A DNA stretch of 36,851 nt. It comes from an uncultured Luminiphilus sp. (GTDB lineage: Bacteria > Pseudomonadota > Gammaproteobacteria > Pseudomonadales > Halieaceae). Both the position numbers and the translations under genes were made by a program. The DNA lies in the NCBI GenBank assembly GCA_938091995.1, contig CALKNZ010000101.1, positions 1-36,851 on the forward strand. Direction: 5' to 3'. The notes below the pieces were generated by a model. That model was not told the origin of the DNA, did not search any database, and saw only the letters and a program-made list of their open reading frames with translations. Position 1 is the stretch's first letter. The number at the start of each line of letters is the position of its first letter. Shown piece by piece: positions 2,066-28,841 of this stretch.

Positions 2066-3361
2066 TCAGCCTTCTAGATAATGGCCATACTTTTCTAAAG
2101 CTTTAGCGCGTTGCGTGGGGGTATGGTATGACGGGAATAAGTCGTCATACGGCGCGTAATCGCGCAGTACGCCTTTAGCGACTGCTATCTTGTGCACTTC
2201 CGTCGGTCCATCGACAACGCCTAATTCGGGAATGTTCGCCCACATGTGTGCCAGCGGGGTTTCGTCAGAACTGCCCAAACTGCCGTGAAGGTGCATGGCA
2301 CGTGAAACTACCTCAAGCAGTACTTTGGGGGTTGCAGCTTTGATAGCCGCGATTTCCTTGCGCACCTCGCGGTTATACTCCTTGTGCTTATCGATCAGCC
2401 AGGCGGTGTAGAGCACGTGTAGCCGATACTGCATCATGATGGTGTAGGCGTCGGCTATCTTTTCTTGGGTCATTTGCTTGTCGGCAAGGAGTTCACCCTT
2501 TGTTTTTCGACTCAAAGCGCGTTCACACATCATGTCAATAGCCTTGCGTATGACGCCAACGCTGCGCATAGCATGGTGTACACGACCGCCACCTAGACGT
2601 GTTTGGGCGACTAAAAAGCCATCGCCTTCTTCTCCCAGCAGATTGTTAGCTGGAACGCGACAGTCTTTAAATTCGATGTAAGCATGTACGCCGTCGCCTT
2701 GTTCTACGTAGGGTCCTACGGCCGAGTTTCGGATGATATCCATGCCCGGTGTGCCCTGTTCGACCAAAAATATTGAGGCACCCTTGTGGATAGGCACATC
2801 GGGATTGGTAACGACCATGACAAGCAAAAAGGCGCTAAAGCGCGCATGGGAGGCGAACCATTTCTCGCCATTGATTACCCACTCATCGCCATCGCGGGTT
2901 GCGGTGCATAAAAACTCGCCGGGATCGGCGCCAGCTTGTGGCTCGGTCATGGAGTAGCAAGAAGCGATTTCTGCATTCAATAGGGGCTTTAGAAAGCGTT
3001 CTTTCTGATCTTCCGTACCAAACTTCGCCAGTATCTCCGCGTTCCCTGAATCGGGTGCCTGACAGCCAAACACACTGGGGCCAAAACGACTTCTGCCGAG
3101 AATTTCGTTCATCAGGCCCAGCGCAACTTGGCCGTATCCCTGACCACCTAACTCAGGTTCAAGGTGGCAGGCCCATAGTCTTTTGCTCTTTACAATTTCG
3201 CGCAGTGGTGCCATTGCGGCTGCAGCTGGCGAGTTGGGATCCCAGGGGTCACCAGGTTCACGGAAAACTAAATCGAGTGGCTCAATTTCTTCTTTAGTAA
3301 ACTGATCAATCCAGTCCAGTGATTTTTGGAAGTCGGCGTCTGTCTCAAAGGACCATGTCAT
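2066..3361 (-). CDS. Acyl-CoA dehydrogenase, ACAD10/11-type
   Basis: A 431-residue FAD-dependent acyl-CoA dehydrogenase. It shows the ACAD10/11 subgroup signature APDSGN at 102-107, the flavin-binding MTEPQAGADP segment from 138, a QTRLGGGRVHHAMR helix, and the C-terminal DGPTEVH at 384-390 that replaces the usual GGTAEIQ. GGAG lies 7 nt before the ATG. ACAD10/11 relatives are linked to 4-hydroxyacyl-CoA breakdown, where an APH-fold kinase phosphorylates the 4-hydroxyl and the dehydrogenase-like enzyme removes phosphate. The same kinase family is encoded by the divergent operon at 4412-5434. The protein is distinct from, though in the same subgroup as, the one at 21042-22265. It is 136 bp upstream of the PQQ dehydrogenase and could be cotranscribed with it. 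The family call is firm; the 4-hydroxyacid role is inferred. Confidence 0.9.
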   Translation of the reverse strand: MTWSFETDADFQKSLDWIDQFTKEEIEPLDLVFREPGDPWDPNSPAAAAMAPLREIVKSKRLWACHLEPELGGQGYGQVALGLMNEILGRSRFGPSVFGCQAPDSGNAEILAKFGTEDQKERFLKPLLNAEIASCYSMTEPQAGADPGEFLCTATRDGDEWVINGEKWFASHARFSAFLLVMVVTNPDVPIHKGASIFLVEQGTPGMDIIRNSAVGPYVEQGDGVHAYIEFKDCRVPANNLLGEEGDGFLVAQTRLGGGRVHHAMRSVGVIRKAIDMMCERALSRKTKGELLADKQMTQEKIADAYTIMMQYRLHVLYTAWLIDKHKEYNREVRKEIAAIKAATPKVLLEVVSRAMHLHGSLGSSDETPLAHMWANIPELGVVDGPTEVHKIAVAKGVLRDYAPYDDLFPSYHTPTQRAKALEKYGHYLEG

Positions 3362-3476
3362 GGGTTATCTCCTTAATCTTTCGTGTCATGCCTGATTACC
3401 TTTCCTAGACGGTGCAGACGATTATTTGGGGTGCTTAGGTGCGACCGCGCTCGTGTTATGTAATGATAAGTGTAGA

Positions 3477-3498
3477 CTTGCTTAACACAAACAAGCAA
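3477..3498. promoter_or_regulatory. Inverted-repeat half-sites in the 3362-3668 divergent intergenic region
   Basis: TTGCTT at 3478-3483 and AAGCAA at 3493-3498 form an inverted repeat with a 9-nt spacer, and the right side reads CAAACAAGCAA. This resembles the CAARCAA half-sites found upstream of other genes in the window (20217, 28865, 32817, 35220). It lies about 120 bp upstream of the minus-strand acyl-CoA dehydrogenase start, a plausible regulator site. The wide spacer weakens the call. Confidence 0.35.
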
Positions 3499-3575
3499 TG
3501 TGTGAGCTGCACTGTGCGCGTTGTTCTTCCCAGCATCTGCACACTTGTGTGAAAAATGTGATGCAGTCAGTGGGG

Positions 3576-3621
3576 TTGTTTAAGTTACTGGCTAGTTTAA
3601 ACTTGTTCGGAACAAGTTTAA
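3576..3621 (+). promoter_or_regulatory. Perfect palindromic operator and putative promoter of the 3669-9597 operon
   Basis: Positions 3597-3608 (TTAAACTTGTTC) and 3610-3621 (GAACAAGTTTAA) are exact reverse complements around a single G at 3609. This is typical of a TetR-family operator. A plausible sigma-70 promoter, TTGTTT at 3576-3581 and TAAACT at 3598-3603 with 16 bp spacing, would place the -10 inside the palindrome, so a bound repressor would block it. The first gene starts at 3669. The TetR gene in the same operon (7116-7772) is the most likely ligand. The palindrome is seen directly; the promoter and regulator assignments are inferred. Confidence 0.65.
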
Positions 3622-3668
3622 CTGAATAAGACAGTGAAAACACCAAAACAGCAGAATTGGAGAAAATA

Positions 3669-4415
3669 ATGAGCAGCGACCAGAGTCATCAATCTGTTTG
3701 GCTGGTCACTGGTGCGTCTCGGGGAATTGGCGCTGCAATAGTCGCTCGGGCCCACCAAGAAGGCTGCCGCGTCGTGATTGTAGCGAGGGGAGCAGAAGCG
3801 CTGAGTACCGCGGAGCGATTGGGCCCTGGCGCCATAGCAATTCAGGCTGACGTGAGTGACGTCGCTGCTGCACAAGGCGCAATTGAAAAGACGATGGCAA
3901 CTTTCGGTCGCATCGATGTGGTGGTCAATAACGCTGGAGTCCATCGAGGCGGTAAGGTGGAGCGTCTGAGTCCTGAGGATTGGCAGACTGTGCTCAATGT
4001 GAATCTCACTGGGGCTCTGAATATGATCAGGGCGGCAAAGCCGCATCTGCAGCCAGGGTCCAGCATTATCAATATTGGGGCAGTGGTAGGTTTTCGTGGA
4101 TTTCCGGGTGATGTGGCTTACGCATCCTCAAAAGCAGGTCTCTCAGGAATGACCAATGCCTTGGCCATTGAAATGGGCAAGCAGGGCATCACGGTGAACC
4201 TCGTTGTTCCGGGCCTGGTATTAACCGACATGACCTCTGGATTGAGCGATGCCGCTATGGAGAATATGAAAGCAAAAATTCCCATGGGGCGCCTTGGTCA
4301 GGACAGAGAAGTTGCTGAAGTCGTTTATTGGGTCAGTCAGAGTCGCTATATGACCGGCGCTACGGTGCCTGTAGATGGTGGCTTAATGTGTAGCTTTGGG
4401 GTCGTCAGCCCGTGA
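3669..4415 (+). CDS. Short-chain dehydrogenase/reductase (FabG-like), catalytic Ser replaced by Ala
   Basis: A 248-residue classical SDR. TGASRGIG at 14-21 binds the cofactor, NNAG is at 87-90, and YASSK gives Tyr151 and Lys155. The start is the ATG at 3669, which has GGAG at 3659-3662; a TTG at 3657 would be an in-frame alternative with no good ribosome site. The residue 13 before the Tyr, normally the catalytic Ser (Ser138 in E. coli FabG, which has the same spacing), is Ala138 in the segment NIGAVVG. This may lower or alter activity. It is the first gene of the operon and overlaps the kinase gene by 4 bp. By analogy with LvaD it could interconvert 4-keto- and 4-hydroxyacyl-CoA, or act as a 3-hydroxyacyl-CoA dehydrogenase. 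Confidence 0.88.
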   Translation: MSSDQSHQSVWLVTGASRGIGAAIVARAHQEGCRVVIVARGAEALSTAERLGPGAIAIQADVSDVAAAQGAIEKTMATFGRIDVVVNNAGVHRGGKVERLSPEDWQTVLNVNLTGALNMIRAAKPHLQPGSSIINIGAVVGFRGFPGDVAYASSKAGLSGMTNALAIEMGKQGITVNLVVPGLVLTDMTSGLSDAAMENMKAKIPMGRLGQDREVAEVVYWVSQSRYMTGATVPVDGGLMCSFGVVSP

Positions 4416-5434
4416 GTACAAAGCCTCAGGACGCAATTTGCCACTGGCTTCGGGAAAATCTTCACTGGTCTGATGTGCAATTTGTGGGGCCTTTAAGTGG
4501 GGGCAACTCGAATTTAACCTGGCATTTTTCAGCCGCCGAGCACTCTTGTGTGGTCAGAACAACGCCAGATGAGGCTATATCCCCTAATTCGGCCAGAGGC
4601 ATTGAGCGGGAATCTAAAGTTCTGAAGCTTGTTGAAGGTCGGGTAAAAGCCCCTAAACTCTTTGCCTGGTGCGATGATCTCACGGTGATGGGGAGACCTT
4701 TTTTGGTGCAAGAGTGGATCGATGGGCGCTCGGTAACTGAGACACTCCCTAACGCCGATTGGAATCCAGTGACTGCGGCCAATGCACTCGGTGAGGACAT
4801 GATGCGGCAACTCTCAGATGTCCATAGTATTGCGTGGCCTAATGAGTCTTTATCACTTTTGGGTCGACCCGATAATTTTGTTAGCCGCCAGATAGAGCGT
4901 TGGCTCGCGGTCCGTAAAGAGCAGGCTGTGAGAGAACTCCCTCTGCTGTTTGAACTAGGAGCGTGGCTTCAGGAGAATATGCCCGAGACGGAACGTCCAG
5001 GGTTGATTCACGGTGATTACCATCTCGATAACACGTTGGTGAGTGCTGAAACTCCAGAGATCACAGCCATTATTGACTGGGAACTTGCGACGGTCGGCGA
5101 CCCAGCTATGGATGTGGCACTTGCCCTGTTATTTTGGGGTGATAAGCGCGTTTCCGAACCACCGGCATTTTCTCATTTGCAGGCGATATCCAGATTGCCG
5201 GGGGTTGTAGATCGGAGGCATTTGGCGGCCGTTTGGTCTGCCGAAACCGGCCTTTCTACCGATGCAATGGGCTACTACATTGCCCTGGCGGCCTGGCGAC
5301 TCGCGGCCATCATCGAAGGTGCTTATGGCCTTTATCTTCAGGGCAAAGTAGATACACCCTACGCGGCAGGACTCGAACACGATGTCCCCGCATTATTGGC
5401 TGAGGCTGAACAAGCCGCAGCCGGAAACTGGTAA
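4412..5434 (+). CDS. APH-fold phosphotransferase (ACAD10/11 kinase-domain / LvaA-like)
   Basis: A 340-residue aminoglycoside-phosphotransferase-fold kinase. The catalytic loop is HGDYHLDN with Asp202 and Asn207, and the metal-binding IIDWE has Asp222; a Gly-rich LSGGNSN loop is at 28-34. It starts with GTG inside the preceding stop codon (GTGA overlap), implying translational coupling. Sequence features match the family related to the kinase domain of human ACAD10/11 and to LvaA of Pseudomonas putida, which phosphorylate the 4-hydroxyl of 4-hydroxyacyl-CoA. Neighbours fit this: acyl-CoA synthetase, SDR and an ACAD10/11-type dehydrogenase. A role in antibiotic resistance is unlikely. No gene for the small LvaB partner of the Pseudomonas system is seen. 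Confidence 0.87.
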   Translation: MSTKPQDAICHWLRENLHWSDVQFVGPLSGGNSNLTWHFSAAEHSCVVRTTPDEAISPNSARGIERESKVLKLVEGRVKAPKLFAWCDDLTVMGRPFLVQEWIDGRSVTETLPNADWNPVTAANALGEDMMRQLSDVHSIAWPNESLSLLGRPDNFVSRQIERWLAVRKEQAVRELPLLFELGAWLQENMPETERPGLIHGDYHLDNTLVSAETPEITAIIDWELATVGDPAMDVALALLFWGDKRVSEPPAFSHLQAISRLPGVVDRRHLAAVWSAETGLSTDAMGYYIALAAWRLAAIIEGAYGLYLQGKVDTPYAAGLEHDVPALLAEAEQAAAGNW

Positions 5435-5442
5435 CTACCCCT

Positions 5443-7080
5443 ATGACGGTTAATGAGCCGAGTATGCTGAGCACTATGATGCATACCTCATTGGGGGTGC
5501 ACCCTCTTTTCAAGTTTGGATCACGGCATTTTCCTACTAGCCGAGTCGCGGATTATGACGGTGAGCACCTTAATTGGTGGTCCTATCAAGAAATAGAGTC
5601 CTTGGCGGGTCGGTTGGCGAATGGGTTAACGGCACTGGGTATAGGCAATGGCGATCGGGTCGGGACATTCCTGTGGAACGGTGTCAACCACCTGGGTGTC
5701 TACCTTGCTGCTCCCAGTATGGGCGCAGTGCTGCACACGCTAAATTGTCGTCTCGCTGCAGATCAGGTTGCTTATATTATTAATCATGCGAACGATCGCT
5801 GCGTTTTTGTCGACGGACGCCTAGAGGCACAGTTTCGACCCGTGCTCGATCAAATTCCCGACGTGACGCATATTATTGTTTGTGATCCCCAAGGTGGGTT
5901 AGATGATGAGCGTGTCGTCAGCTTAGAAAGCCTGCTTGCCAATCAAGCATGCCACTACGATTGGCCGGAAATTCCAGAGACGCAGGCTGCGGGTATTTGC
6001 TATACCAGCGGCACTACGGGCAATCCGAAGGGCGTTGTGTACAGCCACAAAACGACTTACCTACATGCCTTGGCATCGAGGTCTGTTGACAGTTTCGGTG
6101 TTCAAGAGCGGGACACAATTTTAATGCTGCCGGCAATGTTTCATGCCAATGCTTGGGGCTTTCCTTATAGTGGGTGGATGTCGGGCGCCAACATGGTTAT
6201 GCCCGGTCCGCACACTCAGTTAGCGCATTTAAAAACGATGATTTTGGCGTCGCAGCCTACATTAACGGCAATGGTGCCTACGATCTTGGGTGACCTTTTG
6301 CGAGATAAGTCGCTTACTCGAGAGCACATGGGTTCCTTTCGGGCTTTGGTGTGTGGTGGATCTGCCGTTCCGTCATCTATGATTGAAGAATCCCGCGACC
6401 GCTGGGGTGTGCCTGTGATTCAGGGCTGGGGAATGACCGAAACTAGCCCCATGTGTGTCTTGTCGCATCCGCCGAAGAACTTGGGGGATACGCCAGAAAC
6501 ACAGTGGCGCATGAAAAGTGGTCGACCTGTGCCGGGCATTTGTGTGCGTGTGGTTGACGAGTCTGATCAGGTGCTACCTGAAGATGGGCATACGGTGGGA
6601 GAGTTACAGTTGCGCGGAGCTTGGGTGACGGGCAGTTACCTCGATATCGAAAGTGATGCCTTTACCGCAGACGGGTGGTTGAGAACCGGCGATGTAGGTC
6701 ATATTGATCCTCAAGGGTACGTGCAGCTTACTGACCGCATGAAGGATGTCATAAAGTCTGGTGGCGAGTGGATTTCTTCGGTTGATCTTGAGGATGCCAT
6801 ATTACAAACTCCGGGAGTGTCTGAAGTGGCAGTTATTGGGGTTGCTGACGAACGTTGGCAGGAGCGCCCTCTAGCTGTTGTTGTGTGCAGTGCGGAGCAA
6901 CCCGCAACTGCTGCCCAAATTAGGCTCGTTTTGCAGGATCTTGTGGCAAAGTTTTGGGTTCCCGAATATTGGTCGTTTGTCGCTGATTTACCCAAAACTA
7001 CCGTGGGTAAGCTGGATAAAAAACAGCTTCGGTTAGAGCACAGTAACGGCCAATTATCTATTGAGATCTGTCGTGATTAA
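5443..7080 (+). CDS. Acyl-CoA synthetase (AMP-forming, medium/long-chain type)
   Basis: A 545-residue ANL-superfamily ligase that activates a carboxylic acid to its CoA thioester. YTSGTTGNPKG at 188-198 is the phosphate-binding loop; GWGMTETSP, GWLRTGDVGHID and the C-terminal GKLDKKQL (catalytic Lys523) complete the set. The start at 5443 lies 8 nt after the kinase stop but has a weak ribosome site. The ATG at 5464, giving MLSTMM as in many relatives, is an alternative. Probably cotranscribed with the kinase and SDR, where it would supply the acyl-CoA substrate as LvaE does in levulinate catabolism. Its substrate cannot be read from sequence. Confidence 0.92.
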   Translation: MTVNEPSMLSTMMHTSLGVHPLFKFGSRHFPTSRVADYDGEHLNWWSYQEIESLAGRLANGLTALGIGNGDRVGTFLWNGVNHLGVYLAAPSMGAVLHTLNCRLAADQVAYIINHANDRCVFVDGRLEAQFRPVLDQIPDVTHIIVCDPQGGLDDERVVSLESLLANQACHYDWPEIPETQAAGICYTSGTTGNPKGVVYSHKTTYLHALASRSVDSFGVQERDTILMLPAMFHANAWGFPYSGWMSGANMVMPGPHTQLAHLKTMILASQPTLTAMVPTILGDLLRDKSLTREHMGSFRALVCGGSAVPSSMIEESRDRWGVPVIQGWGMTETSPMCVLSHPPKNLGDTPETQWRMKSGRPVPGICVRVVDESDQVLPEDGHTVGELQLRGAWVTGSYLDIESDAFTADGWLRTGDVGHIDPQGYVQLTDRMKDVIKSGGEWISSVDLEDAILQTPGVSEVAVIGVADERWQERPLAVVVCSAEQPATAAQIRLVLQDLVAKFWVPEYWSFVADLPKTTVGKLDKKQLRLEHSNGQLSIEICRD

Positions 7081-7115
7081 ACGAATTAGCTACAAAAAAT
7101 AAGGACAGCTTGTTC

Positions 7116-7772
7116 ATGAATAAAGTTGTTGTAAAGGTTTCTTCAGGCGATCAATCCGTTGCCACAAACAAACAGGCAGAGCGCAGTGCCCAGTCTGACA
7201 AAAAAATGTTTGAAGCGGCCATCGAGTTGATTAATGAGCGCGGTACAGCAAAAACCACACTCAAAGATATCGGCGAGCACGCAGGCTATAGCCGGGGTCT
7301 AGCGAGTTATCGTTTCGGCTCCAAAGATGGTCTTTGGATGGAGTTATTCGATAAATTCGATGATATCTGGAAGCAGCACATCGCCGATTACATAAAAGAT
7401 AAGTCTGGATTAGATGCCCTGCGCTGTGCCATTCACGCTCAGCGAGATATTTTTCGCGCCGAGTCAGGGTACCTGCGGGCTATGTACATTCTTTGGTATG
7501 AATCCCTCGGCGAAGCCTCGGACATTCGCGCCAGCCTTGCTCATCACCATAAAATATATCGACGTGATGTCGCCAAGTGGCTGGAACAAGGGGTTGAGGC
7601 GGGGGACTTCAGTGCAGACATCGATTGCCAACAATTGGCGGGGATTTATTGTTCCATGATGTTTGGCGCGATCTATCAGTGGGTTGTGGCGGCGGATGCC
7701 CTGGATCTTGACGCATTCTTCACCTACCTAGAAAAAATGCTTACCTTTTATGTGATTAATGCGAGGCACTAA
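7116..7772 (+). CDS. TetR/AcrR-family transcriptional regulator
   Basis: A 218-residue protein with a TetR N-terminal DNA-binding domain at about residues 25-75 (GTAKTTLKDIGEHAGYSRGLASYRFGSKD region), followed by an all-helical ligand-binding domain. The start is the ATG at 7116, with AAGGA at 7101-7105 at a rather long 10 nt; an in-frame TTG at 7110 is closer to it. The gene sits inside the operon, 35 nt after the ligase and 2 nt before the hydrolase. Autoregulation through the palindrome at 3597-3621 is therefore likely. The ligand is probably an acyl-CoA intermediate of the pathway (inference). Confidence 0.9.
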   Translation: MNKVVVKVSSGDQSVATNKQAERSAQSDKKMFEAAIELINERGTAKTTLKDIGEHAGYSRGLASYRFGSKDGLWMELFDKFDDIWKQHIADYIKDKSGLDALRCAIHAQRDIFRAESGYLRAMYILWYESLGEASDIRASLAHHHKIYRRDVAKWLEQGVEAGDFSADIDCQQLAGIYCSMMFGAIYQWVVAADALDLDAFFTYLEKMLTFYVINARH

Positions 7773-7774
7773 CG

Positions 7775-8578
7775 ATGGCTAGATTGAATGTGGATGGCGA
7801 CAAGTCCATCTATTTTGAAGATGTGGGCTCAGGCGATAAGGTACTGATATTAATTCATGGTTGGGGCATGAGTGGTCGAGCTTGGGATGGCGTGCTTATT
7901 CCTCTTTTAGACGCGGGGCTGCGTGTCATTACCGTCGACCATCGCGGTTGCGGTCGATCTGATCATGACTTCGCCGATTTAAGTATTGATGCGATTGCAT
8001 CTGATGTAGTGGCGCTGGTCGACGCATTGTCCCTCCCGTCGGTTTACCTTAACGGCTGGTCTTTGGGCGGAGCGGTGGCTACACGCGCTGCGCATTCTCT
8101 AGGGTCGCGCTGTGCAGCATTGATATTAACGGCTGGAGCGAGCCCCATCTATACGCAGAAACCCGATTTGGCTTTGGGCGGGAACGCTGAGGATGTGGCG
8201 GGAATTGTTGAGGCCATGAATGCGGATCGGGTGACTTTCCTCGCAGGTCTCGCCCATGCGGTGACCGCGAAGCCGGTGTCTGACGCGTTACTAACCTGGA
8301 TGGGGGACACGTTTATTGGCTCGGCAGCGCGGGCATCGTCAACTCTAGGTGAGCTGGCACACCTCGATCAACGCGACATCATGGCTGAACTGGACCTGCC
8401 AATCCTATCGTACATCTGCGGTCAGGATGGGTTTGTTGCGCCAGAGATATCGCGCTGGGTAGCGGAGAATCACCCTCGAGCTGAAGGTGTCGATTTTCCC
8501 GATAGTGGCCACGCACCATTTATAGAAGAACGTGAGGCCTATCTTGAAAGTTTGATTCGCTTCGTTGCATCCAACTAG
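7775..8578 (+). CDS. Alpha/beta hydrolase
   Basis: A 267-residue alpha/beta-fold hydrolase. The nucleophile elbow GWSLGG holds Ser96, Asp218 is in CGQDGF, and His246 is in DSGHAPF. The oxyanion-hole HGW is at 28-30. This complete triad predicts an esterase, thioesterase or C-C hydrolase. It resembles BioH-like and meta-cleavage-type hydrolases only at the fold level. GAGG at 7763-7766 precedes the ATG, and the gap to the TetR stop is 2 nt. Placement directly before the flavin oxidoreductase suggests that the two act in sequence. Confidence 0.88.
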   Translation: MARLNVDGDKSIYFEDVGSGDKVLILIHGWGMSGRAWDGVLIPLLDAGLRVITVDHRGCGRSDHDFADLSIDAIASDVVALVDALSLPSVYLNGWSLGGAVATRAAHSLGSRCAALILTAGASPIYTQKPDLALGGNAEDVAGIVEAMNADRVTFLAGLAHAVTAKPVSDALLTWMGDTFIGSAARASSTLGELAHLDQRDIMAELDLPILSYICGQDGFVAPEISRWVAENHPRAEGVDFPDSGHAPFIEEREAYLESLIRFVASN

Positions 8579-8592
8579 ATCAGGAAGTTCAA

Positions 8593-9597
8593 ATGGCTAA
8601 CCAAGTAGATTTCGGATTGTGGTACGACTTTCGTAACCCTAAACCCTGGCAGATTGATTTCGAGGTGTTTTACCAAGAGCGACTGGATCAGATTGTTGCC
8701 GCTGAGGGAATGGGCTTTGACTCGGTTTGGTTGACGGAGCACCATTTTTGCGACGACGGCTATACGCCCTCACCACTGATGATTCACGCCGCAATTGGTG
8801 CTCGAACTCAGCATATGAAGTTGGGTACTAATTTGATGTTATTACCCATTGCAGATCCAGTGCGCATCGCAGAAGACGCCGCGACGCTCTCACTGATGAC
8901 AGGTGGTCGCTTTGATCTTGGTGTCGGGATTGGCTACCGACAGCTTGAGTTTGAGCAGTTTGGTCGCAAAATTTCCCATCGCCCGAGTCTGGTAGAGGAG
9001 GGCATCGAAATTTTGCGTCGCGCCTGGTCTGGTGAACCCGTCAATTTTGAGGGCAAGCGCTTCAGTGTCGGTGATCTATGTATCACACCGACGCCTAAGC
9101 GAGCGCCTAAAATTTTATTGGGTGGTATGGCCCCCCCAGCGATTGATCGCGCTGCACGTATTGCAGATGGCTTTCTCTGTACCGGTGGTATTGGTATGGA
9201 TGTCTATGTCGAGGCCCTTAAAAATAATGGCAAGTCTCCGGAGGAGGGTAATATTATTCTGGGCTGCTGGGCCATTATTGCTGAGGATCCCGAGGCTGAA
9301 GCCGCTAATGTCGGTGAGCACGTGCTCTACCAATCTAACGAGTACATCCGCTGGGGTGCCTTTGGTCCCCCGGATCAAACGCCACTTTTCCCCGATGCTC
9401 GAACAGCGATTGATAACGGCTTGTATGAGCTTTGGGATGCCGATATGGCGGTAGAAAAGCTCTCTGCGATGATCGATAAGTATCCTATGATCTCTGACAT
9501 TCACTTTTGGGCTCAGTTTCCCGGGGAGAGTGTTGAATCTGGAAATCGTCGCCTAAATTACATTGCAGAGAAGGTACTTCCCAGATTGAAAAACTAA
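8593..9597 (+). CDS. Luciferase-like (LLM class) flavin-dependent oxidoreductase
   Basis: A 334-residue bacterial-luciferase-fold TIM-barrel protein. It shows the WLTEHHF segment near residue 46, the GVGIGYRQLEFEQFG segment near 113-127, and the KILLGGMAPPAIDRAARIADGF strand-helix region. Such enzymes use reduced FMN (or F420 in actinobacteria) for monooxygenation or dehydrogenation. AGGAAG sits 5-10 nt before the ATG at 8593. It is the last gene of the operon, 14 nt after the hydrolase and about 35 nt before an intrinsic terminator. A Baeyer-Villiger-type reaction feeding the neighbouring hydrolase is possible, but sequence alone cannot decide this. Confidence 0.87.
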   Translation: MANQVDFGLWYDFRNPKPWQIDFEVFYQERLDQIVAAEGMGFDSVWLTEHHFCDDGYTPSPLMIHAAIGARTQHMKLGTNLMLLPIADPVRIAEDAATLSLMTGGRFDLGVGIGYRQLEFEQFGRKISHRPSLVEEGIEILRRAWSGEPVNFEGKRFSVGDLCITPTPKRAPKILLGGMAPPAIDRAARIADGFLCTGGIGMDVYVEALKNNGKSPEEGNIILGCWAIIAEDPEAEAANVGEHVLYQSNEYIRWGAFGPPDQTPLFPDARTAIDNGLYELWDADMAVEKLSAMIDKYPMISDIHFWAQFPGESVESGNRRLNYIAEKVLPRLKN

Positions 9598-9875: not shown

Positions 9876-11852
9876 TTACTCTTTAGTCGCTAGAGCTGGG
9901 TTATTGTCCACGGCAAACACCAACAGAGCGTTCCCGGGTTCATGGAAGTAGAGTCCATAGCCCGAGTTTACGACCAGGTGGCCTCGGGCAACGGTGACTC
10001 CCGCCCCGCTCATACCGCCTCCGGAAGCCGGGACACCATTGACCGTGTTAAAACTTTGCCCGGTGTCATAGTCCCAAACAACTTCGCCCGTTTCACCATC
10101 ATAGGCACGAAGATGACCATCAAGGTGTCCGGCAATGACCGCACCAGTGACGGCCGTTAGGGGAGCAGAGACCCCTGGGTCGCATAAGGGACGGTCGTCA
10201 CCACAGATATTTTTTTGCACGTGACTCCACAGTACTGAGCCGTTTTGTGTATCGATAGCGTGAACGCCGGGACGCGCTAAATTCGGATCGAGGACCTCAC
10301 CATTTCGCGTATCGTTCATGTCGTTGATCGGCGCGTACACGCGGGTTCCCTCAGCGGCCATGCCGAAATGTACGCCACCTTGTATGCTGCCGCGACCAAC
10401 TTTTGTTACCCACTGACGCTGTGCGCCGGTGGCGGCATCGTAGGCCACAACGCTGCCATCTTTGTGGCCGGCAACGATGATATCTTCGGCCCCTGGACGT
10501 TTGACCAGCAAAGGACTCGATCCTTGATCATAGTCTGGCCCGAGCTCTGGAGGACAGTTTGGATGGTTGATAGACATCATGCAGCCGACGTTCCAAGCAT
10601 CACCTGCGAAAATCTGGCGGGTCCACAGTCTTTTACCATTGTCCATACGAACGGCAATAATCGCGTCGCTGTTGTCATCTGCAGGAGAGGAGTAATTTTC
10701 CCCCGAACCGAAAAAGAGACGATTGTTATCTGGATCTAGAGTTGGACTATTCCAGACCGGAGCTCCAGATGGGGCGAGACTGGCCGTTCCTGCGCTGGTC
10801 AATCCGTGTTTGCTTGCGGGCTCTGGTACCGTGTAGCTGACCCAATTGATGGCACCTGTTGCAGCGTCAATCGCCATCACTTTCCCTCTGAAGGTACAAC
10901 AGGGATAGTTCGGATCTGCAGCCGCCGTGACTTCTAGGGATGAAACGGGCGTATAAAGAATACCCTCATGATAAGCGGGAGTGCCCGTGAGTGTTGCGCT
11001 GGGGTGATCATCAGCGCTAATTTTCCAAAGTAGCTCACCCGTCACTGCGTCAACAGCGTAAAGGTTGGCAATGATGTCGCCAAAAAAAGCGAGGGGGCGG
11101 GTGTCCCCGTGTTGGCCTAACACAACACCGGTGCGCACCTCAGCACTGGCTGTAAATGACCAGCGTACACAGCCAGTTTCGAGGTCTAGGGCATAGACCG
11201 TACCGTCCTGGCTGCCGGTGTAGATGGCTCCCATTGCGATCGTTGGTTGCGAACGCGCTCTTAGGGCTCCTGCGTAGCCAAAGCTCCACTTAAGTTGCAG
11301 TTTTGGAAGGTCAGTTTTGCTCAACCCTGCAACTGTGTCAGGAATAAAGCGAGAGGTGTCTCGGCCCCACCCGGTAATTTCCTCATTGTCCCATGCTGTA
11401 AAAGTTGAATGCTCCACGCTGCAAAGGTTGAGCGCTGGGGGCGCCTCGTCTCTACCGGTGTAGCGTTTCGAAGTGAGGTATTCAACGACGTCAATTTTTT
11501 GTTGCTCCGAAAGTGTGGAGGCTTGGGATGCCATGATCCCCTGTGTCATGGTCTTGTAGAGAGCCTTTTGCGACATCATTTCCAGCCAGGTTTGATGGGG
11601 CGCTTTATAGACTTGACCAAGGTGACAGGTAGCACAATGGCTGCTGTACAGAGCGGCTCCCGGCAGAGCACTTCGGTTGCTAAATTCGCTACCCGCCTGC
11701 AGATCATCAGTTGAGGCAAGAACGGCAGAAGCATCTGCAGCTTGGACCTGAGTAACGCCCATGAAGAGAGTGAAAAGCATGGCTGTAATCAGGGCGTTGA
11801 ACCACAAACGATACCGATGGTGGCCCAGAGGGTTATCTTGATAACAGAGCAT
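9876..11852 (-). CDS. PQQ-dependent dehydrogenase with N-terminal cytochrome c, polyvinyl-alcohol-dehydrogenase-like
   Basis: The start is chosen at the ATG at 11850-11852, with AAGGAA at 11859-11864 (6 nt spacing); an upstream in-frame ATG at 11888 has no ribosome site. The 658-residue protein has a signal peptide ending near VQAADAS (about residue 39), haem motif CATCH at 73-77 with likely ligand Met107, then a PQQ beta-propeller with repeated A-x-D-x-x-T-G-x-x-x-W blades. The order haem then propeller matches polyvinyl alcohol dehydrogenase and related secondary-alcohol dehydrogenases. It should act in the periplasm, delivering electrons to the respiratory chain. The gene is divergent from the MDR reductase at 11985. 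A natural secondary alcohol is a likelier substrate than PVA. Confidence 0.87.
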   Translation of the reverse strand: MLCYQDNPLGHHRYRLWFNALITAMLFTLFMGVTQVQAADASAVLASTDDLQAGSEFSNRSALPGAALYSSHCATCHLGQVYKAPHQTWLEMMSQKALYKTMTQGIMASQASTLSEQQKIDVVEYLTSKRYTGRDEAPPALNLCSVEHSTFTAWDNEEITGWGRDTSRFIPDTVAGLSKTDLPKLQLKWSFGYAGALRARSQPTIAMGAIYTGSQDGTVYALDLETGCVRWSFTASAEVRTGVVLGQHGDTRPLAFFGDIIANLYAVDAVTGELLWKISADDHPSATLTGTPAYHEGILYTPVSSLEVTAAADPNYPCCTFRGKVMAIDAATGAINWVSYTVPEPASKHGLTSAGTASLAPSGAPVWNSPTLDPDNNRLFFGSGENYSSPADDNSDAIIAVRMDNGKRLWTRQIFAGDAWNVGCMMSINHPNCPPELGPDYDQGSSPLLVKRPGAEDIIVAGHKDGSVVAYDAATGAQRQWVTKVGRGSIQGGVHFGMAAEGTRVYAPINDMNDTRNGEVLDPNLARPGVHAIDTQNGSVLWSHVQKNICGDDRPLCDPGVSAPLTAVTGAVIAGHLDGHLRAYDGETGEVVWDYDTGQSFNTVNGVPASGGGMSGAGVTVARGHLVVNSGYGLYFHEPGNALLVFAVDNNPALATKE

Positions 11853-11948
11853 AAAAAATTCCTTGTCGCCGTTTGCTGTTATTGCCATAGATATTATTTT
11901 TAGGCTGATATCTTCAGTGGACCACTATAAAGTAATTCGTTGCTGCAC

Positions 11949-13037: not shown

Positions 13038-13835
13038 TTAGGCATCACCTGCCGCCCAGCGAATAGCGTTTTTTAAAAGCTGCCGATAATTGGTATCGTC
13101 GAAGGTTGGCGTGTCGTCACCGGGCTGCAGGTAAACGATGCGGCTGTTCCTGCATTGCCGGGTCCAACCTACTAGTGACGACCCTTCACTAGGGTGCCAG
13201 CCCTCATTGCAATACATTTTTCCTGTCACGGCGTGATGAGCCGAATAAAAATTCTCAGGCGTAAACGCATAATTGCTGCGCAGTATAGGTTCTATCGAGT
13301 CCTCAAACACTTCACATAAATAAAGCTCGTCGGTTAGTTGAAAAGTTGTTGGCAACCCTTGTGTAATGGGGTGATTCGACGAAGCCACTGAGATGTTATG
13401 GGTGACCTCATGACGGTAGCCTGAATCGAGTGTTGATCGCCCGCGGCATTCTTGTGGGTTATAGAAAAACCTTCCGCCGATAATTTCTCCAAATTCGGGC
13501 CACAGTGGCCAAGAGGCTAAAGCGTGGTGCAGGAACACCATGCCCTTGCCCGCCTCCAGAAGTTGATTCATGTTTTTCTTTAGGCTTTCTGGGGGCGGAG
13601 TGGCTGTCGGTGGTTGTGTGCTGAAGTCGATACCGGGCATGTCATAAAAGACCAGCGCATCATAGGGTGCGGCTAGAACGGGGTCTAAAAATTGCTGACT
13701 GGCGGGCTGCTCCACTACCGTACAGGTCACATCAGTGAGGCTGTCAAGACATTCACTAAAGGCATCTCTCGCGTAGGGGTGCCCTTTGGTCGCTACCAGC
13801 ACGTTGAGGGTTGGGTGGTAATTGATAATGCCCAT
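13038..13835 (-). CDS. ThuA-domain protein (class I amidotransferase-like fold)
   Basis: A 265-residue protein with the ThuA (trehalose utilization) domain: VLVATKGHPYARDAF near the N-terminus, VFLHHALASWPLW in the middle, the GRSTLDSGYRHEV segment, and a C-terminal LLKNAIRWAAG. The fold is related to glutamine amidotransferases but lacks an obvious catalytic Cys at the nucleophile turn. Family function is poorly defined and mostly linked to sugar or other small-molecule catabolism. The gene is divergent from a Rieske oxygenase gene (134 bp apart) and convergent with the MDR. A second ThuA-domain gene at 24810 is also next to a Rieske gene. Confidence 0.85.
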   Translation of the reverse strand: MGIINYHPTLNVLVATKGHPYARDAFSECLDSLTDVTCTVVEQPASQQFLDPVLAAPYDALVFYDMPGIDFSTQPPTATPPPESLKKNMNQLLEAGKGMVFLHHALASWPLWPEFGEIIGGRFFYNPQECRGRSTLDSGYRHEVTHNISVASSNHPITQGLPTTFQLTDELYLCEVFEDSIEPILRSNYAFTPENFYSAHHAVTGKMYCNEGWHPSEGSSLVGWTRQCRNSRIVYLQPGDDTPTFDDTNYRQLLKNAIRWAAGDA

Positions 13836-20390: not shown

Positions 20391-20720
20391 ATGTCGGAAT
20401 CACCTAAAATCACCGTTATTTCTCGGGAGGGTACGACAGCTACCCTAGAGCAGAATGCGGGGCAAGACACCTTGATGCAGCTGCTCTTTGCAAACGATCA
20501 AGGCGTAGAGGCGGCCTGCGGTGGCTGTGCGTCTTGTGCCACCTGCCACGTCTACATTGCTGAGGATTGGGTCAAGCGGTTGCCGCCTCGTGAACAGGTT
20601 GAGGATTTGCTGCTCTCGTATTCAGAACATTTCGATAAAATTAGATCGCGCCTGAGTTGTCAGATATCGATGACCTCAGACATCGATGGTTTGATCTTGG
20701 AAATAGCGCCAGAGGAATAG
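20391..20720 (+). CDS. 2Fe-2S ferredoxin, adrenodoxin/putidaredoxin type
   Basis: A 109-residue ferredoxin. The cluster ligands are Cys43, Cys49, Cys52 (C-x5-C-x2-C) and Cys90 in RLSCQI; an extra Cys46 is within the loop. LPPREQVEDLL near 64 is a conserved part of the family. This type feeds cytochromes P450 or Rieske oxygenases and takes electrons from an NAD(P)H-ferredoxin reductase. No P450 or reductase gene occurs in the window, so it probably serves the Rieske oxygenases or proteins encoded elsewhere. It is divergent from the ligase operon and shares its regulatory region. Confidence 0.92.
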   Translation: MSESPKITVISREGTTATLEQNAGQDTLMQLLFANDQGVEAACGGCASCATCHVYIAEDWVKRLPPREQVEDLLLSYSEHFDKIRSRLSCQISMTSDIDGLILEIAPEE

Positions 20721-20840: not shown

Positions 20841-21041
20841 GTGTCACTTCGATTGATGAAGCTCGCTGACAGGTCTTTTGATGGGGGGTGAGTTAAGAGA
20901 GTTACGGCAAGTGCACAACACAAAGCGAGTCATCGCGATGCATTGACGATAGGATAGCCGATCGGATGGGGCGGGATGTCCGTTGAACATTTTGTCAAGT
21001 TGCTAAAAATAGAGCGTATAAAGAGGGTTGGTCAAACAATT

Positions 21042-22265
21042 ATGCATACAGTCACAGAAAAATCGGAAGCCTTGCTGGCATCTCTTAAGGCTTTTATAGC
21101 CGAATTTATTATTCCAAATGAGGCCGCTTATCGACATGCATTGGCCTGTGCAGAAAATCGCTTTGCACCTTTGCCCCTAATGGATGAGCTCAAGCTGAAG
21201 GCGAAAAATCAGGGGCTATGGAATTTATTTGTTCCCCCCGATCACGCTGAGTTTAGCGACCACGGTGGCCTGAGCTTTTTAGAATATGCGCCTTTGGCGG
21301 AAGAAATGGGGCGGGTGATTTGGTCTGCTGAGGTATTTAACTGTAACGCCCCCGATACCGGGAACATGGAAGTGTTCATGAACTTTGGTACCGAGGCACA
21401 GAAATCTCAATGGTTGACTCCCTTATTGGCTGGGGAAATTCGCTCATCCTATGCAATGACAGAGCCTCAGGTTGCCTCCAGTGATGCTACTAATGTTCAA
21501 CTAAGTATTCGCAAGGACGGTGACTCCTGGGTGTTGAATGGGAGAAAGTGGTTTATTACCGGCGCCCTCTATGAGCGCTGCAAAATTCTTATTGTGATGG
21601 GTAAAAGTGACCCTGAAAATAACAGTCGTCACCTACAGCAGAGCCAAATTTTAGTGCCTAAAGACACGCCGGGGGTCAATATTATTCGGCCGCTTACGAC
21701 CTTGGGTTACGATGATGCGCCTTTGGGCCATGCTGAAATTGTGTTTGATGAAGTGAGGGTGCCTTTGGAAAATGTACTGGCCGGAGAGGGCCGGGGTTTT
21801 GAAATTGCTCAAACCCGCTTGGCTCCCGGACGGATGCATCACTGCATGCGGTTGATCGGAGCGGGTCAACAAGCTTTAGAAAATGCTTGCCAGCGAGTTA
21901 CCGACCGACAGACTTTTGGTCGCCCCCTGAGCAAACATCAGTCGATTCGCGAAAATATTTCCAAATGTTTTTCTGAGATAGAAATGGCGCGCTTATTAGT
22001 GCAAAAAACTTGTTGGACGATTGACAATCAGGGTGTAAAAGCATCCATTCCCATGATCGCAGCGACAAAAACAACGGTACCGTTAGTGATTCAGACCGTG
22101 ATTGATCGGTGTATGCAGATGCACGGGGCCGGGGGACTCACTGAAGATTGGTCTATGGCAGAAAATTTTAATTATGCGCGCTGGTGTCGTCAGGCAGATG
22201 GGCCCGACGAGGTGCATCAGATGGCTTTGGGCAAACAGATTATTGAGCGATTTTCCAATCAATGA
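21042..22265 (+). CDS. Acyl-CoA dehydrogenase, ACAD10/11-type
   Basis: A 407-residue dehydrogenase with a very clear ACAD11-like signature: APDTGN at 103-108, MTEPQVASSDAT at 139-150, QTRLAPGRMHHCMR, QMHGAGGL, and DGPDEVH at 386-392. The start is uncertain: the ATG at 21042 fits the family length, while the ATG at 20976 would add 22 residues that look unlike relatives. AGAGG before 21042 is 14 nt away. ACAD11 enzymes work with a kinase domain on 4-hydroxyacyl-CoAs; the only kinase here is at 4412. The NTF2-fold gene follows after 13 nt. Confidence 0.9.
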   Translation: MHTVTEKSEALLASLKAFIAEFIIPNEAAYRHALACAENRFAPLPLMDELKLKAKNQGLWNLFVPPDHAEFSDHGGLSFLEYAPLAEEMGRVIWSAEVFNCNAPDTGNMEVFMNFGTEAQKSQWLTPLLAGEIRSSYAMTEPQVASSDATNVQLSIRKDGDSWVLNGRKWFITGALYERCKILIVMGKSDPENNSRHLQQSQILVPKDTPGVNIIRPLTTLGYDDAPLGHAEIVFDEVRVPLENVLAGEGRGFEIAQTRLAPGRMHHCMRLIGAGQQALENACQRVTDRQTFGRPLSKHQSIRENISKCFSEIEMARLLVQKTCWTIDNQGVKASIPMIAATKTTVPLVIQTVIDRCMQMHGAGGLTEDWSMAENFNYARWCRQADGPDEVHQMALGKQIIERFSNQ

Positions 22266-27050: not shown

Positions 27051-28196
27051 TTAGGTTGTCAGAATGTTGACCCCGCTGATACCGGGTGCGCCGTAAACAT
27101 GGGTGTAACCTACTTTTGGGCCGTTGGGAACCTGGCGATTGCCGGCTGTCCCGCGCAGTTGGTGACAAACTTCATACACCTGCCGTAAACCCGAGGCTCC
27201 CACCGGTTCTCCATTAGCCAGACAGCCCCCATCGGTATTGACGGGTAACTTTCCATTGATTTCTGTCGCGCCTTCTTTCAACCAGTGCTCTTGCTCACCA
27301 TGTTCGCAGAACCCGTTTTCCGCTAAATGCATTATTTCGGCACCGACCTCCGTATCTTGTAGCTGCGCGACATCGACATCCTCAGGGCCAATACCTGCAA
27401 ATTCGAAGGCGGCGCGGGAGGCGGTAACTGTGGGTGAGGGGGCGACGGCGGGTGCTTGTGATGGGCTAAAAACCTCGAAGCTTCCGTAGTGGCGTGATCG
27501 CACAACAGCGCTTTTTAGCAACACCGGATTATTGGTAAATTTGTGGGCTAGGTCAGCGCGGCAAAGTACCAGCGCACACCCACCTTCAGCGGGTGAACAA
27601 AACATATATTTATTGAGCGGCTCGCTGACCATTGGCGCCGTGGCAATATCTTCGGCAGATAGCGCAGTTTGTCGCCACGCGGTTGGGGTGATCGACCCGT
27701 TTCGAAAAGCTTTCTCGGCAACTCTGATCAAGCTTTCTCGAGAGATACCGTAGTCATGCATATAGCGCTGAATTTTCATGGCGAAGTATTGGGTAGTTAA
27801 CATCAGCCCTGTTTCTCCGTACCAGTCATCCAGCCCCCAATCTTTTGGTTGTGGGTTAAATGCACCCCGTGCGTGCTTATCGAAGCCCACGACAAGCCCC
27901 AGGTCATATTGGCCCGATTTTATGGCTGAGTAAGCCGCGTTTAACGAGCTGCCACCGGTGGCGCAGCCATTCCAGATATTGGTGAATTGCAGTCCTGTTA
28001 AGCCCAAGAGGTTAACGAGGGAGTCGGCATTGCCCCCATCTTGGCTGCCGCCAAAAGCAAACTCCATGGCTTTGAAGTCAGTGCCTGCATCCGCAATGGC
28101 AGCCCTAGCAGCAATCGCCCCCTGCTCTAGGCCAGAAAGTTTGGGGCTGCGACCAAAAGGATGCAATCCCAACCCAACAATGGCTACGTCCGTCAT
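27051..28196 (-). CDS. Thiolase-fold protein, SCP2-thiolase / Ltp2-like
   Basis: A 381-residue thiolase-superfamily protein. The nucleophile region WNGCATGGSS has Cys78. The usual GHP His motif near residue 330 is GEP (NTDGGCLANGEPVGASG), and the C-terminal Cys motif is replaced by HVYGAPG at 366-372. Such changes occur in the SCP2/Ltp subgroup, where members such as actinobacterial Ltp2 act as retro-aldolases in steroid side-chain loss rather than thiolases. The start overlaps the DUF35 gene stop by 4 bp (ATGA), a coupling typical of the Ltp2-DUF35 pair. Thiolase or retro-aldolase activity cannot be chosen from sequence. Confidence 0.87.
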   Translation of the reverse strand: MTDVAIVGLGLHPFGRSPKLSGLEQGAIAARAAIADAGTDFKAMEFAFGGSQDGGNADSLVNLLGLTGLQFTNIWNGCATGGSSLNAAYSAIKSGQYDLGLVVGFDKHARGAFNPQPKDWGLDDWYGETGLMLTTQYFAMKIQRYMHDYGISRESLIRVAEKAFRNGSITPTAWRQTALSAEDIATAPMVSEPLNKYMFCSPAEGGCALVLCRADLAHKFTNNPVLLKSAVVRSRHYGSFEVFSPSQAPAVAPSPTVTASRAAFEFAGIGPEDVDVAQLQDTEVGAEIMHLAENGFCEHGEQEHWLKEGATEINGKLPVNTDGGCLANGEPVGASGLRQVYEVCHQLRGTAGNRQVPNGPKVGYTHVYGAPGISGVNILTT

Positions 28197-28624
28197 AAAG
28201 CCTCCGCGCTACGAAATTGAAAGGTCATGAGTTGATTGCCTTCGTGATCAAGACGCACCGGAATAATTTCAAGGGACATGGGCAGGCCTATTCGCAAGGC
28301 GTCGGCTGAGTTTTCATGCAGTCTACTCTCAACCTTGAGACCGCAGGCGAGTTCGACATAACCCACGCCATAGGGGCGAAAATTTTCAGGAGTTTCATCG
28401 GTTTGGTAGGGGGCTTTGGGCATAAAGCTTTGTATTGTCCAGGTCCATAGCGTCCCAGAATTGCCTAGTCCTACGACCTCGGTGCGTTCACTGCCACAGG
28501 CACGACAGCTATGCTGGCTTGGAAAAGCGTGTTCGCCACAGTCTTGGCAGCGGCTCCCCAACAACTGTGACGGCGCGTCTGGCCAGCTGAACAAACCTGG
28601 GTGGAGTGGTTGTTGATTTTCCAT
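28193..28624 (-). CDS. DUF35 (OB-fold, zinc-ribbon) acyl-CoA-associated protein
   Basis: A 143-residue DUF35 protein. The zinc ribbon uses Cys26, Cys29, Cys40 and Cys43 (CQDC and CRAC), followed by an OB-fold beginning near GNSGTLWTWT. The ATG at 28622-28624 is chosen with AGAGGGG upstream; an earlier in-frame start at 28675 is possible. DUF35 proteins bind next to thiolase-fold partners, and in steroid-degrading actinobacteria a DUF35 domain is needed by Ltp2. It is the first gene of the minus-strand operon, driven by the promoter at 28842-28870. Confidence 0.86.
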   Translation of the reverse strand: MENQQPLHPGLFSWPDAPSQLLGSRCQDCGEHAFPSQHSCRACGSERTEVVGLGNSGTLWTWTIQSFMPKAPYQTDETPENFRPYGVGYVELACGLKVESRLHENSADALRIGLPMSLEIIPVRLDHEGNQLMTFQFRSAEAL

Positions 28625-28841
28625 GTCGTTGCCCCTCTGTGCTGGTGACCGCGAAGTCGTTGCGTGTTCCGGCATTTAACTCTGGTCAACGCCACAGGTT
28701 ATTTCAATATTATGTCGGGCTTGCTGCGAATGCTGTATTTGGGTTTTGGATTCTCAAGGAAGCCAACCTTTAAGGGAGCCGTAAAAAAACGCGCCCATCA
28801 AAACAGCGCCCCAACAACATTATTTGCTGTGCTTTAGGGTG

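Follow-up and report, generated by a model that had tools for sequence, protein, structure and literature searches.

What kind of hydroxy acid might a marine bacterium lead into β-oxidation with a phosphorylating kinase and a dehydrogenase of the ACAD10/11 type? The question is raised by positions 2,066 to 9,597 of a 36,851-nucleotide stretch of DNA from an uncultured Luminiphilus sp. (CALKNZ010000101.1), which we analysed in full and refer to as the window; it is contig C101 of a draft genome of 2.88 Mb in 130 contigs, 80.75% complete (further contigs, loci and genomes carry C, L and G numbers). An initial annotation had likened the genes there to the levulinate (Lva) module of Pseudomonas putida. 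On gene content, family membership, conserved residues, co-occurrence and operator-like sites, all of which are observed, we favour a different reading with somewhat better than even confidence: a TetR-regulated catabolic module in which a hydroxy acid, most likely derived from Baeyer–Villiger oxidation of a ring and hydrolysis of the lactone or ester, would enter β-oxidation by ACAD10/11-like phosphorylation and elimination.

Six plus-strand genes form the operon: a short-chain dehydrogenase (SDR1, 3669–4415, ATG start, with a TTG upstream at 3657), an APH-fold kinase of the ACAD11 kinase family (KIN, 4412–5434, GTG start), an AMP-forming acyl-coenzyme A (acyl-CoA) synthetase of the AMP-binding ligase family (ACS1, 5443–7080, with a PRK06187 match above cut-off), a TetR-family regulator (TetR1, 7110–7772, assigned by family match and co-occurring with an operator-like site), an α/β hydrolase proposed to open lactones or esters (ABH, 7775–8578, nearest in the PDB to 5h3h and arylesterases) and a luciferase-like flavin (or F420) oxidoreductase, proposed to be a monooxygenase (LLM, 8593–9597). 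The acyl-CoA dehydrogenase ACAD1 (2066–3361, minus strand), of the RLGGGR/HAMR subclade of the ACAD10/11 superfamily, points away from them across a divergent promoter region common to both (3362–3668). For the open reading frames (ORFs) that it named, the initial annotation had every coordinate and family right; the TetR1 gene was missing from its text. Its phrase that the kinase is fused by overlap to the SDR proved too strong: a gene fusion is ruled out, the two being separate proteins whose stop and start overlap by 4 bases. The gaps that follow measure 8, 29, 2 and 14 bases.

KIN finds its best PDB matches in 9o56 (E 4e-40), 3dxp (5e-37) and mouse ACAD11, followed by 3ats (4e-9), 9fsg (3e-8) and macrolide kinases. 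Against the kinase segment of mouse ACAD11 it shows 27% identity, and its residues R66, E67, R159, D202 and N207 align with the ACAD11 active-site set, the roles of which are set out in excerpts of PMC12440821. For the Arg beside the αC Glu, the place in the motif is clear and the number uncertain, as counting along the mouse chain gives 84 and the paper R86. The catalytic Asp and Asn and the Arg–Glu pair are present in 13/13 cassette kinases, and at the position of the CoA-contacting Arg (ACAD11 R176, KIN R159) 10 of them have Arg and three have Lys. In a 57-row tree (quick search, support by the SH-like approximate likelihood-ratio test (SH-aLRT) only, hand-picked rows, with the intended outgroups L005 and L006 and rows L186 and L060 dropping out because they were absent from the matches), the 13 form one group at SH-aLRT 100. 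The starred branch of this tree (97) separates 26 rows, namely the cassette kinases, nine that lie beside other RLGGGR-type dehydrogenases and four more, from 31 rows that include ACAD11. The kinase and dehydrogenase subclades largely run in parallel. The GGG_L185 kinase is on a very long branch, and L090, the gene of which lies beside that of an HCMR-type dehydrogenase, is placed among the RLGGGR kinases. By kinase gene, the nearest named relatives are metagenome-assembled Luminiphilus genomes and Marine gamma proteobacterium HTCC2080. A second ACAD11-like kinase, 43% identical to the mouse segment, is encoded on contig C11 of the same genome.

The initial annotation had named antibiotic and choline kinases as the contrary case, and a phosphotransferase of that type, lying by chance in a fatty-acid catabolic cluster, would indeed share the APH fold; KIN also has weak NCBIfam matches to thiamine kinase and APH(3'). 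Those matches fall far below cut-off, however, whereas 9o56, 3dxp and ACAD11 outscore macrolide kinases by many orders of magnitude (E 2e-27 for ACAD11, 3e-6 for the macrolide kinase that comes closest), and KIN is inherited together with ACAD1 in 12/12 genomes. We therefore reject an antibiotic or choline kinase identity on profile and tree evidence and regard it as extremely improbable. Judged by its sequence, KIN is an ACAD11-type kinase and not an antibiotic kinase, and is predicted to phosphorylate a 4-hydroxyacyl-CoA.

Does ACAD1 have what the matching elimination would need? Its best solved relatives are ACAD11 chains (E 1e-72). R255, H263, R266 and D384 align with mouse ACAD11 R626, H634, R637 and D753, so that the catalytic Asp is in place; exchange of the first three for Ala or Leu was the most disruptive for the dehydrogenase step of ACAD11, according to excerpts of PMC12440821. 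None of the 13 cassette dehydrogenases in the tree set departs from this Arg/His/Arg/Asp set for phosphate elimination. The description of the dehydrogenase as divergent was correct: over 355 columns ACAD1 shares 39% identity with the segment of mouse ACAD11, compared with the 62% and 56% that LvaC is reported to share with ACAD10 and ACAD11 (PMC11342911, in part); a canonical relative, L137, reaches 61% against the same mouse segment. All cassette dehydrogenases (13/13) read RLGGGR[VI]HHAMR and DGP[TS]EV, and 17 canonical bacterial rows read RLGPGRxHHCMR and DGPDEV or DGPDQV, except that the second motif was not found by pattern in L048 and that ACAD4 of the window reads RLAPGR. ACAD1 thus has HAMR in place of the literal HCMR; the Cys of this motif is not among the substitutions named for ACAD11 in the excerpted text of PMC12440821. 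RLGGGR also occurs in a DGADEV group, and HAMR is not present throughout, being replaced by HCMR in L201 and several DGADEV rows and by HSMR in L212.

In a 62-row tree, again a quick search with SH-aLRT only and with rows hand-picked from 143 motif-bearing ORFs, many of them duplicates, the cassette dehydrogenases form one group (98) inside a 26-row clade (99) that is mostly of the RLGGGR type. ACAD11 falls into a 20-row clade (100, starred) and ACAD1 into a separate 37-row clade (96, starred), and hence outside the ACAD11 clade; the root is not trusted, because the outgroups ACAD2 and ACAD3 sit on absurdly long branches. With reactive residues shared and clade and motifs separate, ACAD1 is, as far as sequence tells, a sister class and not an ACAD10/11 ortholog, and would probably eliminate phosphate. 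Like mammalian ACAD10 and ACAD11, the cassette combines homologous kinase and dehydrogenase domains with the kinase Asp and Asn and the equivalents of R626, H634, R637 and D753; unlike them, it has two separate proteins, HAMR and RLGGGR for HCMR and RLGPGR, and a place in the sister clade.

These residues also bear on the idea that the locus is an ordinary β-oxidation cluster, in which ACAD1 would be a conventional dehydrogenase and the kinase an accessory or a protein that has lost its role. Family membership alone is no proof of elimination chemistry. Yet both tree sets show intact catalytic residues in each of their 13 cassette rows, the base of ACAD1 is the Asp of ACAD10/11, and ACAD10 and ACAD11 had no activity on plain acyl-CoAs in the excerpted results of PMC12440821; we consider this explanation improbable. 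Dehydrogenases of the canonical kind occur elsewhere in the genome, one in the window at 20976–22265 (plus strand; HCMR, DGPDEV) with no adjoining kinase and with, by eye, a ferredoxin-like ORF upstream (20391–20720), and another of the HCMR type on contig C3.

How close, then, is the cassette to Lva? In P. putida, as described in the parts of PMC9399607 available, LvaE is the enzyme that forms CoA thioesters and LvaD the reductase for the 4-keto group, phosphorylation of the 4-hydroxyl falls to LvaA with LvaB, and the product is converted by LvaC; ACAD10 with its kinase performs the same conversion on 4-hydroxy fatty acids (PMC11342911, in part). A true lva operon, in which the SDR reduces levulinyl-CoA, KIN phosphorylates 4-hydroxyvaleryl-CoA and ACAD1 eliminates phosphate, would account for the kinase, dehydrogenase, SDR and acyl-CoA synthetase, all of them present as in lvaACDE. 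In contrast to lvaABCDEFG with its activator LvaR, however, the cassette operon has no LvaB and no symporter, its sole regulator is of the TetR type and no LvaR-type activator is found in it, the ACAD gene is divergent from the remaining genes, a hydrolase and LLM are added and co-inherited, and a Baeyer–Villiger monooxygenase (BVMO) co-occurs. The contrast is one of gene content and not of LvaA and LvaC sequences; ACAD1 moreover lies outside the clade of ACAD11, the protein that LvaC resembles. As the initial annotation had it, no LvaB-like partner is seen in the operon, where gaps of 2–29 bases leave no room for one; the rest of the genome was not searched for LvaB. What stands of the Lva comparison is that the ACAD10/11 (Lva-type) superfamily includes both kinase and dehydrogenase, which carry the published catalytic residues; a plain lva operon is rejected on the differences listed, and we hold it to be very improbable. 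No lva operon was recognised in eight regions and 30 loci of about 4 kb, a subset of the matches from 119 genomes of one Pseudomonadaceae genus.

The gene cluster is more than chance, because it is kept in every further Luminiphilus-type locus and because three of its genes have the same distribution over the order. All six further Luminiphilus-type loci found by name (L008–L013) hold the block with ACAD1 adjoining the operon; in L010 the contig ends within the LLM gene, leaving a partial LLM at 97%. Across these loci ACAD1 (92–99% identity) and LLM (89–99%) are the most conserved, and KIN, SDR1 and ACS1 (75–90%) the least. Orthologs of KIN, ACAD1 and LLM occur in the same 12 of 293 genomes taken from the order, spread over six genera and four families. 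For KIN (at least 42% identity, next 36%), ACAD1 (at least 67%, next 56%) and BVMO (at least 65%, next 44%) the ortholog lines were placed afterwards, at gaps in identity, among matches in 161 (E<=1e-30), 24 (E<=1e-110) and 29 (E<=1e-120) of the 293 genomes; LLM orthologs share at least 68%, with nothing else at the preset E<=1e-60 (12 genomes). Because each search scored only the best candidates of a first look (for example, 7/23), absences from these counts are not proofs. Co-occurrence has P 1.5e-21 per pair and 3e-10 at genus level, values that ignore kinship and serve as a guide only. The cassette is found in 6/12 genomes of its own family, its own genome counted, and the distribution is thus patchy; in a phylum-wide sample LLM appeared in 1/398 genomes, namely this one.

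Gene order is mostly kept in ten non-Luminiphilus loci. L066 has neither ACS1 nor TetR1, and its ACAD1 lies on the same contig at a distance of about 15 kb; L068 lacks ACS1, L073 is cut by a contig end, and L074 and L075 lack TetR1. Beside the cassette in L066–L072 lies a second conserved module of SDR, FAS1-type dehydratase, acyl-CoA ligase, thiolase-like protein and TetR, with ligase, thiolase-like protein and dehydratase in 7/7 loci and SDR and TetR in 6/7 each; the Luminiphilus stretches examined showed no such module.

The kinase, dehydrogenase and SDR also travel as a trio. In 5/5 plasmid loci opened (Massilia putida, Rhodococcus qingshengii, Caulobacter sp., Streptomyces sp. and R. rhodochrous), an RLGGGR-type dehydrogenase has a phosphotransferase nearby and an adjoining SDR, the latter sometimes annotated as glucose 1-dehydrogenase and SDR-sized, and in 3/3 Pseudomonadaceae loci within the GTDB order (L127, L180, L181) kinase and SDR adjoin the dehydrogenase. 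Because an SDR adjoins even distant RLGGGR-type dehydrogenases, it looks like a member of the core trio, as LvaD is in lva, rather than only a maker of ketone for a BVMO. The trios of Massilia, Rhodococcus, Caulobacter and Streptomyces contain the closest ACAD relatives in the plasmid collection (55–59% identity) and, unlike the cassette, lack the ACS1–TetR1–ABH–LLM block; the R. qingshengii and Streptomyces loci do have an LLM nearby, whose best NCBIfam match differs from that of the cassette LLM. We know of no described function for these plasmid trios.

Where would the hydroxyl group come from? In L069–L072 a gene for an FMO-like flavoprotein (by Pfam) adjoins ACAD1, and 6/6 copies combine FAD and NAD(P) folds with FxGxxxHxxxW(P), for example FNGPCFHSSRWP in the Luminiphilus genome itself, a motif that we take to be the fingerprint of type I BVMOs. 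The best NCBIfam model for two copies tested was neopentalenolactone/pentalenolactone D synthase, which at 232 and 228 bits lies far below its cut-off of 1100 and is a family hint only. Orthologs, 68–72% identical, are present in the same draft genome (contig C81, L060:5995–7716) and in HTCC2080. Altogether 12/293 genomes have an ortholog, 11 of them among the 12 cassette genomes and the other being G008. Of the 11 in cassette genomes, six lie on the same contig as the cassette, four of these adjoining ACAD1 and those of G047 and G280 standing about 11 kb and 15 kb from it. A BVMO that co-occurs with the cassette and is often linked to it lends new support to the earlier suggestion that the substrate is a lactone or a larger hydroxy acid.

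The divergent promoter region contains a candidate TetR1 site at 3476–3496, ACTTGCT-N5-CAAACAAGC (in full ACTTGCTTAACACAAACAAGC), and a candidate second operator at 3597–3621, the perfect palindrome TTAAACTTGTTCGGAACAAGTTTAA (11-3-11, 25 bp). The first motif recurs with 0–1 mismatch in the divergent region of 13/13 TetR1 loci, from five genera and three families. It has no match at up to three mismatches in the stretches examined from four genomes where no TetR1 was seen; among these, G047, where ACAD1 and SDR1 stand apart, and G113 were each read as two pieces. The palindrome core AACTTGTT-N3-AACAAGTT is kept in 5/7 Luminiphilus-type loci, L012 and L013 being the ones without it, and is unique in its own genome sequence at up to two mismatches. 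Sites related to the first motif also stand between npdG and the BVMO gene in both Luminiphilus genomes examined, identical in the two, and before a SnoaL-like gene in the same draft genome, HTCC2080, L069 and L071 (1, 1, 2 and 2 mismatches, respectively). A TonB receptor gene follows the SnoaL-like gene in the latter three, the copy in the draft genome being cut by the contig end; the SnoaL-like and receptor pairs with an upstream site are at L219:95–2969, L069:15757–18627 and L071:15965–18785. As a control, 50 non-cassette loci (802,823 bases) gave 10 matches at up to three mismatches and one at up to one, the latter in the F420/BVMO contig of the draft genome. Away from operons, matches with three mismatches were found in L223, from a cassette genome, and in L230, and one with a single mismatch in L237, these two being the matches in nine control loci. 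TetR1 may bind the candidate sites, and the cassette is apparently a co-regulated gene set.

For LLM, TEHHF is invariant in 14 aligned rows, the nearest PDB entries are alkanal monooxygenases of the luciferase type, and the best NCBIfam match is to an F420 subfamily, below cut-off. (An AlphaFold model from five near-identical sequences, with a mean predicted local distance difference test score of 57, was not used.) A dependence on F420 is tempting, because the genome has an F420 operon and CofD matches occur in 12/12 cassette genomes, in two of these slightly below the curated cut-off. On the other side, 15/24 chosen others have a CofD match too (Fisher p 0.014 for 36 genomes that were hand-picked and not random, kinship ignored), and the nearest structures are luciferase-type monooxygenases; LLM may or may not depend on F420. 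The operon, complete-looking as npdG-cofE-cofD-cofC-cofGH on contig C81 (L060:279–5801), is divergent from the BVMO gene, and in HTCC2080 its start lies about 9 kb from ACAD1. Regulation of the F420 genes is not claimed, since the divergent BVMO gene shares the operator-like site there, which turned up in the two Luminiphilus genomes only and at none of the F420 operons in the remaining 10 cassette genomes.

These parts can be arranged into a route. SDR1, upstream oxygenases or both would yield a ketone, and oxygen would be inserted into the ring or ketone by LLM, by a BVMO whose gene lies outside the window, or by both; ABH would open the lactone and ACS1 would form the CoA thioester. From a six-membered ring, the resulting 6-hydroxyacyl-CoA would become a 4-hydroxyacyl-CoA by one round of β-oxidation, and the second module of L066–L072 could supply such an extra round there. 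KIN with ATP would then phosphorylate the 4-hydroxyl, and phosphate would be expelled by ACAD1, using FAD and the Arg/His/Arg/Asp site, to leave a 2-enoyl-CoA. For SAR202, a route for alicyclic matter that runs from an SDR and a flavin BVMO through a lactone and an esterase to β-oxidation has been put forward (PMC5395668, in part). The cassette resembles that proposal in its SDR, luciferase-like oxygenase, esterase logic and marine host; it differs in being one conserved cassette with a regulator and in adding a kinase/ACAD pair for the hydroxyl that results.

Several points weigh against this reading. From gene content and sequence we infer the enzyme activities, the order of the steps, the position of the hydroxyl, TetR1 binding and the substrate alike, and for LLM monooxygenation is only the proposed reaction. 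Because the direct way from a cyclic ketone to a 4-hydroxy acid by a BVMO requires a four-membered ring, an extra round of β-oxidation or some other route must be assumed. The monooxygenase occurs without the cassette in G008, the cassette without it in the fragmented G164, and in 5/11 cases (G000, G077, G003, G113 and G140) the two lie on different contigs. The sites between npdG and the BVMO gene are three mismatches from the motif, and an unexplained one-mismatch site stands at L237:3363 in G279, a genome that lacks the cassette. RLGGGR-type kinase/ACAD/SDR trios exist without the rest of the set in Massilia, Rhodococcus, Caulobacter and Pseudomonadaceae, and the substrate range of the trio may therefore be broader. 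Finally, we know of no assay anywhere of the ACAD1 subclade, which may act on a different hydroxyl position.

This last point opens the alternative that the same phosphorylation and elimination is directed at another hydroxyl, such as a 3- or 5-hydroxyl or the tertiary alcohol of a terpenoid or steroid fragment, the subclade reflecting a different substrate geometry. ACAD1 and its kin do form their own clade, with largely parallel subclades of kinase and dehydrogenase, and a bulky substrate is suggested by the nearby Rieske oxygenases and, in relatives, by a TonB receptor and a SnoaL-like protein close to the cassette. The phosphate-binding residues are nevertheless unchanged in ACAD1, and in cells the ACAD10-dependent phosphorylated product arose from 4-hydroxyhexanoate and not from 5- or 6-hydroxyhexanoate, in the portion of PMC11342911 available. 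We regard action on another hydroxyl as unlikely, though a good deal less so than the other rivals weighed above, and retain ring-derived 4-hydroxyacyl-CoAs as the favoured substrates.

Genes for β-propeller quinoprotein-like proteins of the pyrroloquinoline quinone (PQQ) type lie on both flanks of the cassette, at 9876–11888 and at 1–2037 (N0, minus strand, truncated by the window edge). The left one recurs near the cassette in 5/10 non-Luminiphilus loci, and its membership of the pathway is uncertain. From 12 to 37 kb the window is a dense further catabolic region with Rieske oxygenases at 13969 and 32885, ThuA at 13038, DUF3604 at 22892, and a thiolase-like protein with a ChsH2-type OB-fold protein at 27051–28675; by eye, we noted in addition a third Rieske-type protein (25630), a second ThuA-like one (24810), five SDRs and two NADP oxidoreductases resembling curcumin reductase.

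A wider proposal can be put forward tentatively, with less than even confidence. The RLGGGR/HAMR dehydrogenases and their matched kinases may form a distinct bacterial phosphorylate-and-eliminate class for ring-derived, perhaps tertiary or hindered, hydroxyacyl-CoAs, and with BVMO, lactone hydrolase, LLM and TonB receptor under one TetR they may make up a marine Pseudomonadales regulon for alicyclic or terpenoid matter. No description of such a cassette turned up in text searches of an open-licence library, which is weak evidence of novelty because the searches were limited to such papers. How ring-derived hydroxy acids enter β-oxidation is seldom addressed. If the proposal is true, the chemistry that handles 4-hydroxy fatty acids in mammals and levulinate in bacteria would also serve the breakdown of rings in the sea, and a sequenced strain (HTCC2080), a candidate operator and assayable enzymes would be at hand for finding the natural substrate, a question relevant to the attack of marine bacteria on alicyclic dissolved matter.

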